A stretch of 35,721 bases of DNA from Gemmatimonadota bacterium (GTDB lineage Bacteria; Gemmatimonadota; Gemmatimonadetes; Longimicrobiales; Gaopeijiaceae): contig VXMI01000163.1 in the NCBI GenBank assembly GCA_009841165.1, positions 1 through 35,721 of the forward strand. Direction: 5' to 3'. Under the pieces are notes generated by a model. It saw only the letters and a program-made list of their open reading frames with translations. It was not told the origin of the DNA and did no database searches. This document shows, in pieces, positions 17,699 through 34,545 of this stretch (within the stretch, counting starts at the first letter, position 1; each line of letters starts with the position of its first letter). Made by a program: the position numbers and the translations under genes.

Positions 17699-18625
17699 GT
17701 GCGTACCCCCGAATACCACCGCCCGGTGCTGGTGGACGAAGCCATGCGGTACCTGATCGGTGAGGGCGGTCTCTACCTCGATGGGACGGTAGGGGGAGGG
17801 GGGCACGCACACGCCGTTCTCGAACGGTGCCCGGGCTGCCGAGTGGTGGGTCTCGACCGCGACGGCGAGGCGCTCGAGGCGGCGCGCGCCCGGCTATCGG
17901 GCTTTCACGGTCGGGTCCGGCTGGTGCGGATGTCCTTCAGCGAGGTGGGGCACGACCTGCAACTGCGCGTTGAGGGGCTGGCTGGAGCACTCCTCGACCT
18001 GGGCGTGAGTTCGCGGCAACTCGACAGCGATCGTCGCGGCTTCACCTTCCGCCGCGGGGTCGCGCTCGACATGAGGATGGATCCGGAGGGGGCGCTCACG
18101 GCCGAGGGGTTTCTGGCCAGGGCGCCGAAGGGGGAACTGATGGCGGCGCTCCGCGCAGGACAGGCGCCCAGATGCGCGTCACTGGCCAACCGCATCGTGC
18201 GGCGCCGCGCGGAGCGTCCCCTCCGGACCAGCGACGACCTGGTGGCAGTCCTGGAGTCGGTACTGGCGCGCCGCGCCACCCACGCGGAGAAGGCGCGCCT
18301 CTTCCAGGCCCTCCGAATCCGGGTCAACGACGAGATCGAGGCCCTCACGGTCGCGCTCCCGGCGATCCGGGAGCTGCTCTGCCCGGGGGCCACGCTGGTC
18401 GTCATCTCCTACCACTCCGTCGAGGACGGGCTGGTGAAGCGTGCCTTCCGCGAGTGGAGCGACCCTGCGCACGGCCTGCCGCCGCGCCTGCCGGTTCGCG
18501 ACTCCGAACTGACCGCGCTGGGGACCGTGCTGACGAGGAAGCCGGTCAAGCCGAGTGCCGAGGAGATCGCGGCCAACCCGCGGGCGCGCCCCGCACGGCT
18601 CAGGGCATGGCGGAGGGCGGCATGA
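17699..18625 (+). CDS. rsmH: 16S rRNA (cytosine(1402)-N(4))-methyltransferase
   Basis: RsmH (MraW) methylates N4 of C1402 in 16S rRNA using SAM. The 308-residue length fits the family. The SAM motif DGTVGGGGH is at residues 28-36, and the family block ALLDLGVSSRQLDSDRRGFTFR follows. The C-terminal ISYHSVEDGLVKRAF is conserved. GTG 17699 (giving VRTPEYHRPVLVDEA) is chosen because of protein alignment and GAGGGG 9 nt upstream; GTG 17693 is an alternative. The usually Arg/Glu-rich segment before the second half reads LRAGQAPRCASLANRIV, a mild divergence. It overlaps ftsL by 4 nt (ATGA). Confidence 0.95.
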   Translation: MRTPEYHRPVLVDEAMRYLIGEGGLYLDGTVGGGGHAHAVLERCPGCRVVGLDRDGEALEAARARLSGFHGRVRLVRMSFSEVGHDLQLRVEGLAGALLDLGVSSRQLDSDRRGFTFRRGVALDMRMDPEGALTAEGFLARAPKGELMAALRAGQAPRCASLANRIVRRRAERPLRTSDDLVAVLESVLARRATHAEKARLFQALRIRVNDEIEALTVALPAIRELLCPGATLVVISYHSVEDGLVKRAFREWSDPAHGLPPRLPVRDSELTALGTVLTRKPVKPSAEEIAANPRARPARLRAWRRAA

Positions 18626-18906
18626 AGAACGCAAGGCTGCTCCCGAGGGCGATACTGCTGCTCGCGGTCGTGCTGGTTTCTCTCACTACGGTAGCGTGGC
18701 GCCAGTCCACGACCCGGGAGACGATGGAGGAGTTGGCAGGGGCCGAACGTGAGCTGGCGATAGCCATCGATGAGCGCGAAGAGCTGTCCCGCGAGCTGTC
18801 CGCGATGGAGACGCGCCCGTGGATCGGCGCGGAGGCTGCGAGGCGCCTGGGGATGCGCGCGCCGACCGAGAACGAGGTGGTGATCGCGCCCGGAGGTGAG
18901 AGGTGA
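18622..18906 (+). CDS. ftsL: Cell division protein FtsL
   Basis: This 94-residue bitopic protein has one membrane helix (about residues 8-26) and a periplasmic coiled coil (about 30-62), then a short conserved AAxxLGM-like end (RRLGMRAPTENEVV). FtsL pairs with FtsB and FtsQ to activate FtsW/FtsI. The sequence is poorly conserved; identity rests on size, topology and its place between rsmH and ftsI. GGAGGG lies 5 nt before the ATG. It overlaps both neighbours (ATGA and GTGA). Confidence 0.88.
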   Translation: MKNARLLPRAILLLAVVLVSLTTVAWRQSTTRETMEELAGAERELAIAIDEREELSRELSAMETRPWIGAEAARRLGMRAPTENEVVIAPGGER

Positions 18907-27501: not shown

Positions 27502-28653
27502 GTGGTGGTGGTCTTCTCCGGCGGCGGAACCGCGGGGCACTTTCATCCCGCACGGAACATTGCGGAGACCCTCGTCGACGTGCTTCCAGGGGCGGAGCCA
27601 TACTTCGTCGGGACAGAGGGACGGATCGAGGCCCGCGAGTTGCCGCATCTGGGCTACCCCTATCGGCTGCTGCGCGTGGCGGGGCTGAGTCACCCGTTCC
27701 GGGCCGGGCGTCCGCTTTCCGCGGCCGCGGCGAATGCGAGAGCCCTGTGGCTGCTCTTCCTGGCCGTCTGCAGACTCGTACCCGACCTTCACAGGCGTCG
27801 CGCGAGGGCCGTGGTGCTGACGGGCGGATACGTGTGCGCGCCGGCCGGGATCGCCGCCCGGCTGCTCGGGCTGCCCGTGATCCTCCAGGAGCAGAACACC
27901 CATCCGGGGAAGACCACGCGTCTGGTCGCGCGCTGGGCCCGGCAGATCCACGTCGCCTACCCGGAAGCGGCTTCGGCGCTCCCGGCGCGCGCCAGGGCAA
28001 GGGTTCTGGACACCGGCAACCCGATCCGCCCGCTTCCGGCCCCGGAAGCCCGCGCCGCCGCGGATGCCCGGCGCGCGCTGGGGCTGCCGGTGGACGGCCG
28101 GGTGATCCTGGTCGTGGGCGGCAGCCAGGGTGCCCGCAAGATGAATCGGGCAACGATGGAGATATTACAAGACGATCGATCGATCGATGGCCAGTTCGTC
28201 TTGTGGATCACCGGACCGGCGCACTACGACGCCATCGCCGCCGAACTGGGTGCGGTGCGGAGCCCACGCTACGCGGTGGTTCCCTACCTGGAGCCGGAGC
28301 GGATGTACCGCGCGCTGGCCGCAGCCGATGTCGCCGTGTCGCGCGCGGGCGCGATGGCCACCTCCGAGTTCCTGGCATGGGGGCTGCCGGCGATCCTGGT
28401 CCCGCTGCCGACGGCCGCCGCGGACCACCAGACGGCCAACGCGCGTTCCCTGGAAGCCGCCGGCGCGGCCGTGCACCTGCCGGAGACGGATCCGGAGGGT
28501 CGGGAGCTCACCGGCGAGAGGCTGTGGGGCGAGGTCACCAGGCTTCTCGACACCCCTGGCGTCCTCGCGGAAATGGCTCGCGCGGCCGGCCGGCGCGCCC
28601 GCCCCGGCGCGGCACGTCAGGTGGCGGCGGCGATCGCGGAGTTGATCGGGTGA
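27502..28653 (+). CDS. murG: UDP-GlcNAc--lipid I transferase MurG
   Basis: MurG adds GlcNAc to lipid I to give lipid II, at the inner membrane surface. Motifs are GGGTAGHFHPA (7-17), QEQNTHPG (129-136), GGSQGA in the middle, and SRAGAMATSEFLAWG with the donor-site segment DHQTANA. At 383 residues it is a little longer than most (about 355). GTG 27502 follows GGAGGG and sits one nt past the ftsW stop; GTG codons at 27505 and 27508 are possible alternatives. Confidence 0.95.
   Translation: MVVVFSGGGTAGHFHPARNIAETLVDVLPGAEPYFVGTEGRIEARELPHLGYPYRLLRVAGLSHPFRAGRPLSAAAANARALWLLFLAVCRLVPDLHRRRARAVVLTGGYVCAPAGIAARLLGLPVILQEQNTHPGKTTRLVARWARQIHVAYPEAASALPARARARVLDTGNPIRPLPAPEARAAADARRALGLPVDGRVILVVGGSQGARKMNRATMEILQDDRSIDGQFVLWITGPAHYDAIAAELGAVRSPRYAVVPYLEPERMYRALAAADVAVSRAGAMATSEFLAWGLPAILVPLPTAAADHQTANARSLEAAGAAVHLPETDPEGRELTGERLWGEVTRLLDTPGVLAEMARAAGRRARPGAARQVAAAIAELIG
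28173..28188. repeat. (CGAT)4 microsatellite inside murG
   Basis: Four perfect CGAT units lie in a locally AT-rich part of murG encoding DDRSID. Because 4 does not divide by 3, slippage here would frameshift murG. Confidence 0.6.
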
Positions 28654-30071
28654 GCGCCCGGACCGCCTTGCGCGCGCTAGCCGAACGCGGCCCGATCCAC
28701 TTCATGGGGGTCGGAGGTGCCGGGATGGCGCCGCTGGCCGAGATGGTGCTCCGCAGTGGCGCCACGGTCACCGGGTGCGACCTGGCGGACGGCCGGGCAG
28801 CCGAAGCGCTGGCCCGCATGGGGATGGCGTATACGCGCGGCCACGACCCGGCCCACGTGGAAGGCGTGGCCGCCGTCGTGGTCACTTCGGCCGTGCCGCC
28901 GGACCACGAGGAGCTGGCCGCCGCACGGGCCGCCGGGATTCCCGTGATCAAGCGTGCGGAGGCGCTGGGACAGTGGGTCAATGACGGGCGTGTCGCCGGG
29001 ATCGCCGGCACGCACGGCAAGACCACCACGACGGCGATGGCCACCCACATCCTGGAGGAGGGCGGCCTGGACCCGACCGGCGTGGTGGGCGGCGCGGTTC
29101 CGGCGTGGGGCGGAAACCTGCGGGCGGGCGAGTCCCGCGTCTTCGTCGTGGAGGCCGACGAGTACGACCACTCGTTTCTCTCACTCAAGCCGGAGGTGGC
29201 GGTCGTCAACAACCTCGAAGCCGACCACCTGGACATATACCGCGACCTCGACGGAGTCCGCGCCTCGTTCGCGAGCTTCGTCGACCGGCTGCTGCCCGAG
29301 GGCACGCTGTGGGTGTGCGGCGACGACCCCGGGGCCGCAAGGATCGGCGTGCAGGGGGGCTCCCGGACCCGCAGCTACGGCCTCGCCGCGGGCTCCCGGC
29401 TGCGCGCGGTCGAGGTGCGCGCCAACGGCCGCGGGAGCACGTTCACCGTGGTCGAGGACGGGGTGTTCGCGGGCCGGTTCACCGTTGCCGCCCCGGGCGT
29501 TCACAACGTCCGCAACGCGCTGGCGGCGGCGGGAGTGGCTCGCAGCTTCGGCGCCGGGTGGGATGCGGTACACGCAGGGCTCAAGGCGTTCCGGGGCGTG
29601 GGTCGCCGCTACGACGTCCTGGGGACCGCGGCAGGCGTCCAGGTCGTCGACGACTACGCGCATCACCCCACCGAGATCGCAGCCACCCTCGCCGCGGCGC
29701 GCGCGGCCAACCCGGACCGGCGCGTCGTGGCGGTCTTCCAGCCGCACCTGTACACGCGCACGCGCGACTTCTACAGCGAATTCGGGCGAGCCCTCGCCGC
29801 GGCCGACCGGATCTGGGTGACCGACGTGTACCCGGCCCGGGAAGAGCCGCTCTCCGGGATCACCGGGAAACTGGTCGCGTGCGCGGTCGCCGGGCCGGCG
29901 TCGAGGGTGTCGTACCATCCCGCGCTGGCGACGCTGGCCGAGGCGGTTGCGGCCGACCTGTACGAGGGAGATCTGTGCGTTCTCATGGGTGCGGGGTCGA
30001 TCGAGTCCACGGGTCCCGAGGTCCTGGCTTTCCTCCGGCGACGCTCCGCTGGTAAGGGGGAATCCGCATGA
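28650..30071 (+). CDS. murC: UDP-MurNAc--L-alanine ligase
   Basis: MurC adds the first stem residue, L-Ala, to UDP-MurNAc. The 473 residues show the UDP-binding GVGGAGM (20-26), the ATP loop GTHGKTT (120-126), VEADEYDHSFL, DDYAHHPTEI, and FQPHLYTRT. The GTG start overlaps murG (GTGA), with GGAG 8 nt upstream. murB, which usually follows or lies near murC, is absent here; ftsQ comes directly after. Confidence 0.96.
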   Translation: MSARTALRALAERGPIHFMGVGGAGMAPLAEMVLRSGATVTGCDLADGRAAEALARMGMAYTRGHDPAHVEGVAAVVVTSAVPPDHEELAAARAAGIPVIKRAEALGQWVNDGRVAGIAGTHGKTTTTAMATHILEEGGLDPTGVVGGAVPAWGGNLRAGESRVFVVEADEYDHSFLSLKPEVAVVNNLEADHLDIYRDLDGVRASFASFVDRLLPEGTLWVCGDDPGAARIGVQGGSRTRSYGLAAGSRLRAVEVRANGRGSTFTVVEDGVFAGRFTVAAPGVHNVRNALAAAGVARSFGAGWDAVHAGLKAFRGVGRRYDVLGTAAGVQVVDDYAHHPTEIAATLAAARAANPDRRVVAVFQPHLYTRTRDFYSEFGRALAAADRIWVTDVYPAREEPLSGITGKLVACAVAGPASRVSYHPALATLAEAVAADLYEGDLCVLMGAGSIESTGPEVLAFLRRRSAGKGESA

Positions 30072-30610
30072 AAGCCGGCTCGCGCGGACGAACGCTCGCC
30101 CTGGCAGCGGGCGCCGCCGGTCTCGTTGCGCTGGCCGCCTGCCTGCTTCTGCTGGCGGAAACCCCCGCACCCGAGGCGCGTCGCACCGACGACGCCCGGG
30201 CTCCGGTCGGCCTGGTGGCCTCGCCCGTCGTTGTGGCGGTCGACCGGCGGGGCAACGTCATGCCCGTCGACCCGGCGGACCCGGTGCTCGACCTCCCCGT
30301 GCTGTCGGTGCAGACGCCGAAAGCGGAGTCCCTCTGGGGACTGCGCATCCTCGCGCACGATGTCGGCCACATGGCCGGGATGGCTCCCGAAGTCTTCGCC
30401 GTCATCTCCGAGGCCCGGGTCGGCGACCGCGAAATCGCGCTCCTGCTCGGAGACTCGGGGATCCGGATCCGGTACGTGCCCCCGATCACCGAAGCGAGGC
30501 TGCGGGAGGGCATCGTCGCCCTCAACGACGCGGTCGAGCGCCTGGGCGAGGACCAACCGCGCGAGATCGATCTTCGTTTCGAGGACCAGGTCGTGGTGAG
30601 GACCCGATGA
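30068..30610 (+). CDS. ftsQ: FtsQ/DivIB-like division protein lacking a POTRA domain
   Basis: This 180-residue protein has one N-terminal membrane helix (about 9-31). A short linker follows, then a region matching the FtsQ beta domain: residues 47-80 (VGLVASPVVVAVDRRGNV ... LPVLS) and the C-terminal EIDLRFEDQVVVR (164-176). FtsQ proteins normally hold a POTRA domain of about 70 residues between helix and beta domain; here only about 15-20 residues separate them. In E. coli the beta domain binds FtsB/FtsL while the POTRA helps recruit upstream partners. Identity rests on position between murC and ftsA and on the C-terminal motif. It overlaps both neighbours (ATGA each). GGGGGA precedes the start. 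Confidence 0.8.
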   Translation: MKAGSRGRTLALAAGAAGLVALAACLLLLAETPAPEARRTDDARAPVGLVASPVVVAVDRRGNVMPVDPADPVLDLPVLSVQTPKAESLWGLRILAHDVGHMAGMAPEVFAVISEARVGDREIALLLGDSGIRIRYVPPITEARLREGIVALNDAVERLGEDQPREIDLRFEDQVVVRTR

Positions 30611-31833
30611 GATCGGCGCTGATTGCGGGGCTCGACGTGGGCTCGACGCACACCCGCGCGGTCATCGGCGAGTACGTGCCCAGGTACAGACGGCCCGAAC
30701 TGCGGGTTCTCGGAGTCGGAGCCACCGGCACAGTCGGTGTCCGCAAGGACGTCATCACGGACCTGGACGCCGCCACGGAGTGCATTCGGGGGGCGGTGAC
30801 GGAGGCGGAGGTGATGGCGGGCGTCCGGGTCGATCGCGTGTACGTCGGGGTCGCAGGCGATCACATCGAGGTGAGACGCTCCGAAGGGGTTGTGGCCGTT
30901 GCGGCCGAGGAAATCGTGCTGGACGACGTGGACCGCGTGAACGAGGTCGCACAGGCCGTGCCGCTGGCCCACGATCGGGAACTGATCCATGCCATCCCGC
31001 AGGACTACTCGGTCGACCACTACGGCGGGATACAGGATCCGGTCGGGATGACCGGCACCCGCCTGGAGACCGAACTCTGCATCGTTACCGGCTGTTCCGC
31101 GGTCGTAGGCAACCTCACCAGGGCGGTCGAGAGGGCGGGCTACCGCGTGCAGGATCGGCTGCTGGAGCCGCTGGCGGCCGCTCGCGCCGTGCTCGCCGAG
31201 GACGAGAGGGAGCTCGGCGTCGTCCTGATCGACATGGGGGCTGCGTCCACGGGAATGGGCCTCTACTACGAAGGGAAGATCCGCGATCTGACGGTGTTCC
31301 CGTTCGGCGGATCGGCCATCACGAGCGACCTGATCCGAGGCTTGTCGGTTCCTTTTGCGCAGGCGGCGAGAATCAAGGAAGAAAACGGATCGGCCCGTCC
31401 GCGTTCGGTGGACCCGGTCGAGGTGATCGAAGTGCCGACGGGCAACGGCCGTCCCAGAAGAGTGGCGCGCAGGTACGTTGCCGAGCTCATCGAGGAGCGG
31501 CTGAAGAACATGTTCCTGCAGATCGAACGCAGGCTGAGCCGGACGTGCAATCCACAGGCCCTGGGGGCGGGCGTCGTGATCACGGGCGGCGTCACGGCCA
31601 CCCCGGGAATCGCCAGGCTGGCGAGCGAATGCCTCGGGGTGGCGGCCCGGATCGGGGTTCCCGGGGAAGGACTTCGGGGTCTGGCGGATCTGGTGGCGCG
31701 CCCGGGGTTCGCGACCGCCGCCGGGCTCGCCCTTTACGGGGCCGACTACTTCATAGATACGGGCGAGGGAGCGTCCACTCTGGCTTCGGGTGTGGTCACC
31801 CGCGTGGGCGCATGGCTCAAGGAGTTCTTCTAG
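30607..31833 (+). CDS. ftsA: Cell division protein FtsA
   Basis: FtsA is the actin-like ATPase that tethers FtsZ to the membrane and recruits later division proteins. The 408 residues begin with the phosphate-1 motif GLDVGSTHTRAVIGE (8-22), include LIDMGAAST and TGGVTATPG, and end in an amphipathic membrane-targeting helix (VVTRVGAWLKEFF). GAGGA lies 4 nt before the ATG, which overlaps the ftsQ stop (ATGA). ftsZ follows after 61 nt, the largest gap of the cluster. Confidence 0.96.
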   Translation: MRSALIAGLDVGSTHTRAVIGEYVPRYRRPELRVLGVGATGTVGVRKDVITDLDAATECIRGAVTEAEVMAGVRVDRVYVGVAGDHIEVRRSEGVVAVAAEEIVLDDVDRVNEVAQAVPLAHDRELIHAIPQDYSVDHYGGIQDPVGMTGTRLETELCIVTGCSAVVGNLTRAVERAGYRVQDRLLEPLAAARAVLAEDERELGVVLIDMGAASTGMGLYYEGKIRDLTVFPFGGSAITSDLIRGLSVPFAQAARIKEENGSARPRSVDPVEVIEVPTGNGRPRRVARRYVAELIEERLKNMFLQIERRLSRTCNPQALGAGVVITGGVTATPGIARLASECLGVAARIGVPGEGLRGLADLVARPGFATAAGLALYGADYFIDTGEGASTLASGVVTRVGAWLKEFF

Positions 31834-33279: not shown

Positions 33280-34545
33280 ATGCGGATGGCCCTCGTGGCC
33301 GTCGCCGGAACGGCCATTGCCGCTGCCATCGGGGTCGTCGGCCTCTCGGATCGGGTCCCCGAGTCGGAGGAACTGGACGGGGTGTTCGCGCTTGCGCCCT
33401 TCAGGGAGGAGGTGCGCGAACTCTCCTTCGGCATGACCTTCGGGCAGATCCTGAATGACGCAGGCGTGGGTGCGACGGAACAGCAGGACATCCTCCTGGC
33501 CTTCCGCGAACACCACAGCCCCAGGCGGCTTCGCGACGGCACCGAGATACGGGTGCGCTGGCACCCGGATGCCGAGTCACCGCATGGGATAAGCGTCGGT
33601 CTCGACAAGGACAACACGCTGCTCCTCAGCCGCACGCCCGGGGGCCGATGGAATTCGTCGGTTGCGGTTCTGCCCACGACGGTCGACACCGTCTTCGCGG
33701 CCGGAGAGATCACGACCGACCTGTGGACCGCGATCATGACCGATCCGGTCCTCTCCGAAATGCCCCGCAACGACCGGGTCAGCTTCGTCGACCGGCTGGA
33801 CCGCGTCTTCCAGTGGCGGATCGACTTCTTCCGGAGCATCCGGGTGGGCGACACCTACCGCTTCGTCTTCGAACGCGAGAAGCGGCCCGACGGGAGCATG
33901 CGCTCCGGGAGCCTGCTGGCGGCGGAACTGGTCAACGCCGGCAATCCCTACTACGCCATCCTCTTCGACCCCAACGGCGACGGCCGGGGCACCTGGTACG
34001 ACCTGGAGGGCGAGTCGGTGCGCCGCGCCTTCCTCATGCGGCCGCTGCGGTTCAGCCGCATTTCGTCGCGCTATACCAACAGCCGCTTCCATCCGATCCT
34101 GCGCACCTGGCGGGCGCACCGCGGCGTCGACTACGCGGCAGACCCGGGCACACCAGTCGAGGTCACCGCCGACGGCGTGATCGCGCGCAGGGGATGGAGC
34201 GACACCTACGGCCGCGTCATCGACGTGCGCCACGGCAACGGCTTTCTCACCCGGTACGCCCACCTGCAGGGATTCGGCCCCGGGACCGCCGTCGGCTCGC
34301 GCGTGCGCCAGGGCGAGACCATCGGCTACGTCGGCATGACCGGGATGGCGACCGGGTACCACCTGCACTACGAGATGCACGTGGGCGGACGCCCGGTCGA
34401 TCCGCTCGCCATCGAGTTGCCCGCAGACGACCCGGTCCCGGGCGACGCCTTCGATCGCTGGATACTCGAGAAGAATGCGCGGTTCGCGCTGCTGATGAAG
34501 GCTCCCGGCCCCGACCGGATACGCAGCCGCCGCGCGGATCAGTGA
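33280..34545 (+). CDS. M23 (LytM-type) peptidase, membrane-anchored
   Basis: This 421-residue protein (from ATG 33280) has an N-terminal membrane anchor (about 4-22), a domain with LytM-N/OapA-like features (about 40-230), and a C-terminal M23 domain. The zinc ligands H280xxxD284 (HRGVDYAADPGTP) and H361xH363 (GYHLHYEMH) are present, plus His 328, so it should be an active endopeptidase cutting peptide cross-links or, less likely, an activator. Position after ftsZ suggests septum splitting. The ATG at 33280 has only a weak AGG site; a CTG at 33247 with AGGAGG is an alternative start that adds a basic N-terminus. Confidence 0.88.
   Translation: MRMALVAVAGTAIAAAIGVVGLSDRVPESEELDGVFALAPFREEVRELSFGMTFGQILNDAGVGATEQQDILLAFREHHSPRRLRDGTEIRVRWHPDAESPHGISVGLDKDNTLLLSRTPGGRWNSSVAVLPTTVDTVFAAGEITTDLWTAIMTDPVLSEMPRNDRVSFVDRLDRVFQWRIDFFRSIRVGDTYRFVFEREKRPDGSMRSGSLLAAELVNAGNPYYAILFDPNGDGRGTWYDLEGESVRRAFLMRPLRFSRISSRYTNSRFHPILRTWRAHRGVDYAADPGTPVEVTADGVIARRGWSDTYGRVIDVRHGNGFLTRYAHLQGFGPGTAVGSRVRQGETIGYVGMTGMATGYHLHYEMHVGGRPVDPLAIELPADDPVPGDAFDRWILEKNARFALLMKAPGPDRIRSRRADQ

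Follow-up and report, generated by a model that had tools for sequence, protein, structure and literature searches.

Can a protein that stands in the place of FtsQ, but is too short for the POTRA domain, still be FtsQ, and how would such a protein reach the division site? The question is raised by a 180-residue open reading frame at positions 30068–30610 (+ strand) of the window, by which we mean the whole 35,721-nucleotide stretch of Gemmatimonadota DNA that was analysed. In E. coli, ftsQ lies ahead of ftsA and FtsQ has a single membrane helix. In the window the reading frame lies directly ahead of ftsA in a division and cell wall cluster with the order murC–ftsQ–ftsA, where murC (28650–30071, + strand) was identified by its translation, and ftsA (30607–31833, + strand) by its translation from an ATG at 30607 and by a Pfam FtsA match at 6.3e-33. 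Four-base overlaps occur at both of its ends, with the stop of murC and with the start of ftsA, so that there is no space for a POTRA domain, and since its frame stays open over no more than 184 codons there is no further in-frame coding sequence upstream. A sequence-only reading had assigned this reading frame to ftsQ, and the assignment is borne out by the two neighbours together with a match at 6.8e-55 to a profile of 35 full-length FtsQs from which the window protein was left out.

This match covers only positions 102–241 of the 249 in the profile, i.e. the β domain, and a POTRA profile run against all six frames of the window gave no match (best E value 0.42). The protein consists of a membrane helix, a short linker and a β domain, and POTRA is absent. 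The helix comprises approximately residues 10–30 (30095–30157, + strand), with a Kyte–Doolittle maximum of 2.47 at residues 12–30; a single N-terminal hydropathy maximum of 2.20–2.66 was found across the five short proteins described below, and the AlphaFold2 model of the window protein has a helix at residues 14–29, at low confidence. In the alignment of FtsQs, the linker (residues 31–45; 30158–30202, + strand) takes the place of the POTRA domain of the relatives, and it is mostly low-confidence coil in the model. The β domain (residues 46–180; 30203–30607, + strand) was delimited by VIA-align against E. coli FtsQ 6h9o_A, and its C-terminal strand DLRFEDQVVVR (residues 168–178; 30569–30601, + strand) was recognized by its conservation and equated by eye with the FtsB-binding strand. 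The model has a mean pLDDT of 80.6, with ten-residue blocks at 94–97 for residues 91–180, 82–87 for residues 41–90 and below 50 for residues 1–40; the β domain is confidently predicted and no β-α-α-β-β POTRA fold is present. In contrast, when a full FtsQ of the sister group was modelled (L011, mean pLDDT 92.5), this fold was present at residues 43–105, and the β-domain elements of that model follow in the same order as in the window model.

With the window model as the query, all nine Foldseek matches at E ≤0.001 were FtsQ structures, and VIA-align placed model residues 40–180 on residues 124–257 of E. coli FtsQ (6h9o_A; Z 12.4, rmsd 4.0, 128 residues aligned), the solved FtsQ structures matching over the β domain only. 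Hydropathy, model and structural comparisons thus agree with the earlier proposal of a membrane helix plus β domain, and the profile match confined to the β domain, the six empty frames and a structure prediction of FtsQ alone, free of any compact POTRA fold, agree with its claim that POTRA is missing. Both the homology of the β domain and its fold are those of FtsQ/DivIB. No curated family model recognized the protein, with 0 matches in either Pfam or NCBIfam; when five full-length relatives were scanned, all five passed POTRA_1 and none passed FtsQ_DivIB_C. We file the window protein as derived from FtsQ by descent but devoid of POTRA, and not as canonical FtsQ.

Among 59 genomes of the order, including that of the window, 58 gave a match at E ≤1, and the murC–ftsA junction was read in 57, leaving out G010 (no match) and G049 (weak match, E 0.0875). 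The POTRA profile matched 52 of the 57 junction proteins, 22 of these 52 being outside the set from which the profile was built; the five without POTRA came from the window genome (G000) and from G002, G006, G009 and G014. These five are 178–184 amino acids long compared with 242–295 amino acids in the rest (one full-group protein of 215 amino acids is cut by a contig start), and the distance from murC to ftsA is 530–548 bp in the five compared with 727–1066 bp in the 50 others in which it was measurable. In all five species the short ftsQ is intact between murC and ftsA, and in the alignment of FtsQs the other four proteins have 58–96% identity with that of the window. Four of the five short loci were found under separate public accessions (L124, L125, L127 and L139), all of them MAGs, and the clade is, by those records, apparently uncultured. 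A set of 67 named loci, mostly from Gemmatimonadota, had an adjacent POTRA in 61, none in four, which belong to the short clade, and a cut by a contig end in two. The MAG origin of these four records might suggest an artefact of assembly or gene calling; however, the same state recurs in five genomes, four with separate public accessions, which form a clean clade with open frames, and no POTRA turned up when the forward frames of the four accessioned loci and all six frames of the window were scanned, which leaves an artefact with a negligible chance. The sequence-only reading had taken full FtsQ at this locus in relatives as the sign of a local deletion. Relatives do carry the full protein, at 52 of the 57 junctions, but a local accident does not fit a form shared by a five-species clade and maintained under selection.

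Over the phylum, PF08478 (POTRA_1) was found at an E value threshold of 1e-4 in 183 of 200 genomes that were at least 90% complete, matches anywhere in the genome being counted, whether inside ftsQ or elsewhere. Five of the 17 genomes without a match are in this genus (G000, G002, G006, G009 and G010). Of the remaining 12, FtsQ is matched in eight: in seven the protein reads as full-length and its POTRA as divergent, and in the eighth a contig end cuts the gene. The last four (G119, G135, G137 and G223) have no FtsQ match nor, in three cases, an FtsA match, FtsA being matched partially in the other. No second clear loss of POTRA was seen among the 200 genomes, the latter four of which are without a readable ftsQ. 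In the assembly of G010 no ftsA was found, nor did it give a match for the window protein at this locus; FtsB and FtsK of G010 differ little from their G006 counterparts, with which they are nearly identical. In another genus of the same family (g12; L116–L120) POTRA is present but was missed by PF08478 in all five genomes surveyed, and is perhaps a relaxed or intermediate form.

A tree built from MurC and FtsA of 34 genomes places the five short-FtsQ genomes together in one clade with a support of 100/100, and in every one of 200 bootstrap trees the POTRA state requires a single change. The clade is nested in the genus, whose other 17 readable members all have POTRA. As the five form a single supported clade inside a POTRA-bearing genus, POTRA was lost once, and the POTRA-less FtsQ is a new, clade-fixed form of a known protein. 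In this MurC and FtsA tree the branch of G009 is longish (0.47), with its placement inside the short clade supported at 97/93; the short FtsQ of G009 (L017) has a GTG start and the longest linker of the five, possibly helical. Full FtsQs of the same genus (e.g. that of G022, locus L011) share the β domain and synteny with the window protein, which has 54–57% identity with those of the sister group and G017, but they have POTRA and, in most cases, a longer tail past the last strand.

The dN/dS values (NG86) were 0.14–0.40 in six pairs of short FtsQs compared with 0.24–0.42 in six full pairs, synonymous sites being near saturation in three distant pairs (pS 0.50–0.57). The N-terminal pN/pS exceeded that of the β domain in five of the six short pairs and was about equal to it in the sixth (L005–L017), and the β-domain values were 0.10–0.55. 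The C-terminal strand D168-L-R-F171...V177 is nearly invariant in 40 aligned FtsQs, with D168 invariant and R170, F171, Q174 and V175–V177 each at 90% or more. In E. coli FtsQ, FtsB is held by the strand that contains D245, R247 and Y248, and the Y248F variant still complements (PMC6134095). Judged by substitution patterns, the short FtsQ is under purifying selection. One could instead regard the short reading frame as a decaying remnant of ftsQ in a clade whose division has become independent of FtsQ, given that the protein is shorter and that evolution of the N-terminal part can be rapid (pN/pS 0.96, L001–L005); however, the gene is intact in five species at the identities given above, its β domain and FtsB-binding strand are constrained, and its four-base overlaps with murC and ftsA persist in the window, all of which makes decay highly improbable. 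The N-terminal part also contains LAAC at residues 22–25, which we take to fit the lipobox rule, as it does in the two closest relatives of the window protein, so that the β domain might be lipid-anchored rather than held by a helix. This candidate was rejected because the motif is not conserved, the G006 protein having ALC and the G009 protein no cysteine at this place; hydrophobic residues also run on past the cysteine in the manner of a membrane helix, and a lipoprotein has only a slim chance of being the right description. We consider it likely that the gene is ftsQ by descent, that POTRA went in one ancestral in-frame loss and that the product, under purifying selection, works as a stripped FtsQ.

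The missing domain might be made good by a POTRA acting in trans, on a different protein encoded in the genome. PF08478 exceeded its cut-off in nine of 15 genomes of the genus, exactly those with a full FtsQ, and the six without were the five short-FtsQ genomes and G010. A lineage POTRA profile was run on 11 genomes, i.e. these six and five controls, and gave 1.5e-9 to 1.5e-32 in the controls; its best matches in the six were 0.009 (G010), 0.010 (G006) and 0.036 (G009), and 0.80–1.3 in the other three. All three matches below 0.05 are in Omp85 proteins: the G006 and G009 proteins match Omp85 and PF07244 of Pfam, and the G010 protein is nearly identical to that of G006. A stand-alone FtsQ-type POTRA was thus not found with PF08478 or the lineage profile in the six genomes, and the separate POTRA protein for which the earlier note had suggested searching was rejected. 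The Omp85 proteins do contain weak POTRA-like matches, and with the genomes 92–97% complete a gene could be missed, but only Omp85 matches fall below E 0.05, where the same profile finds the FtsQ POTRAs of all five controls at 1.5e-9 or better; supply in trans is very unlikely.

The genes for FtsB, FtsL and FtsK are retained in the clade. The stretch of FtsB from GGxxS to RDGExLY is gapless in 23 of 23 genomes of the genus, all five short ones included, and by eye the FtsB of the window genome (L075) has equivalents of E. coli R72, R79, E82 and Y85, with leucine for F84. This leucine occurs in all 23 FtsBs of the genus; F84A is non-functional in E. coli (PMC6134095). The gene for L075 lies on a different contig from the division cluster. 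FtsL, a 94-amino-acid partner in the FtsQ–FtsB–FtsL complex, is encoded at 18622–18906 (+ strand) and was identified by its position, a coil length as in relatives and a Pfam FtsL match (E 0.0012, 19.3 bits) under the cut-off of 22.9. It scores higher with the FtsB/DivIC model (22.9 bits) than with the FtsL model, both under their cut-offs, and automatic annotation may therefore swap the FtsL and FtsB names. In the 18 of 23 genus genomes compared, the spacing from W to RLGxR in FtsL was 54 residues in five of five short-FtsQ genomes and 53–54 in 13 of 13 full ones. Compensation through a shorter FtsL/FtsB coil was rejected on this account: since the spacings are unchanged, the coiled coil has not been shortened to reach a membrane-proximal β domain. 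The linker, of roughly 15–22 residues, could itself span tens of angstroms.

An FtsK-like match was present in 23 of 23 genomes of the genus. The FtsK N-terminal alignment was of genus sequences only, 20 of the 23 (G013, G015 and G018 left out), and all 20 keep an NPxG loop that follows the first hydrophobic stretch; the short clade, if G010 is included, accounts for six of these. From this alignment of genus FtsKs we read the loop as a probable counterpart of the W51–H57 loop of E. coli FtsK. Co-loss or decay of FtsK was rejected with these counts, and as the loop is kept there is no sign that FtsK has adapted to the loss of POTRA.

What, then, might recruitment look like? In E. coli, FtsQ recruitment needs FtsK, and β2/α3 of POTRA are predicted to bind the FtsK loop W51–H57 (PMC7614612); the recruiting residues V92, Q108, V111 and K113 are in POTRA (PMC10076392, PMC7614612). 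The main FtsB contact is in the β domain, and POTRA contains another hot spot, around R75, which concerns FtsL (PMC6134095); POTRA or the preceding loop has also been tied to contacts with FtsW, FtsN and FtsI (PMC8998562). POTRA is seen as linking, via FtsK, the septal wall-synthesis complex to the earlier divisome (PMC8998562, PMC7614612). We propose that the single in-frame loss of POTRA, about 70 residues, in the ancestor of a subclade in one Gemmatimonadota genus left a β domain that is anchored in the membrane through one helix, with a flexible linker between the two. This domain would bind the C-terminal helix-strand of FtsB and cap the FtsB–FtsL coiled coil, which would in turn regulate FtsW–FtsI, and the short FtsQ presumably still forms the FtsB/FtsL complex and is essential. 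What POTRA is credited with in E. coli (docking of FtsK and parts of the FtsW, FtsN and FtsL contacts) is not possible in the same way, and with these contacts gone, recruitment or positioning would probably proceed via FtsB/FtsL–FtsW, the membrane helix and the β domain. The FtsQ complex might thus arrive at the septum with FtsW/FtsL or through other contacts. As the FtsK loop is retained and the lengths of FtsB and FtsL are unchanged, the different recruitment route proposed in the sequence-only reading goes beyond these results, and the mode of recruitment is one that we infer: the β domain, FtsB/FtsL and the membrane helix are probably what brings FtsQ in or keeps it in place.

A stronger proposition, to which we give even weight for and against, is that FtsQ here arrives without POTRA–FtsK docking, that the essential core consists entirely of the β domain together with FtsB/FtsL and that the FtsK-to-FtsQ step in the order of recruitment has been lost or transferred to a different contact. 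If so, a step regarded as central in E. coli would be bypassed naturally in this clade. The main rival is that little ever depended on the POTRA–FtsK contact in this lineage, where FtsB/FtsL and FtsW already held FtsQ, so that POTRA was trimmed near-neutrally and the recruitment route is unchanged; it is the main rival because recruitment of FtsQ by FtsK may not apply to this phylum. Near-neutral trimming would agree with the lack of a compensating change in FtsK with its loop, FtsB and FtsL, and with the P. aeruginosa cryo-EM work, where the mask of the last refinement excluded POTRA (PMC7614612). The FtsQ chains of 8bh1 and 8p1u are in a similar vein, having 132 and 99 residues, aligned from 142 and 172 on respectively. 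However, POTRA is kept at 52 of 57 junctions of the order, and POTRA_1 in 183 of 200 phylum genomes (matches anywhere in the genome), and a domain kept so widely seems to be under constraint in the rest of the phylum. We regard near-neutral trimming as a possible explanation, though a rather doubtful one. Under either explanation, a clade without POTRA but with FtsB, FtsL and FtsK poses directly the question of whether POTRA, or the β domain alone, serves midcell arrival and FtsWI regulation, and its minimal FtsQ β domain, of about 135 residues, would be usable for reconstitution.

Compared with known systems, the window protein has the same β-domain fold and the same D-L-R-aromatic FtsB-binding strand as FtsQ of E. 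coli and P. aeruginosa (6h9o, 2vh1, 8hhf and 8bh1), but it is without their POTRA of ~70 residues, with a short linker instead, and has a short cytoplasmic tail. Canonical DivIB of Gram-positive bacteria has POTRA and a γ tail; DivIB (1yr1) shares part of the β-domain fold with the window protein (Z 6.8, rmsd 3.6, 101 residues aligned). The nearest precedent that we found is the chlamydial FtsQ (Ct764), which has no identifiable POTRA and for which a different recruitment strategy was proposed; its periplasmic domain is described as large and was matched by Phyre2 to E. coli FtsQ, and the organism lacks FtsZ (PMC4643143). We read its POTRA region as diverged rather than deleted, in contrast with the deletion in the window clade. 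Among the matches listed in our literature search, seen as titles and starts of abstracts and including few subscription papers and no bioRxiv preprints, there was no report of a POTRA-deleted FtsQ. Searches based on POTRA_1 or FtsQ_DivIB_C would score ftsQ as absent in such genomes. Finally, downstream of ftsZ, at 33280–34542 of the window, lies a gene for a peptidase with the domains M23 and Csd3_N2 (Pfam 4.5e-29 and 5.5e-10), whose product, beside the division cluster, is a candidate septal or cell-shape peptidase.
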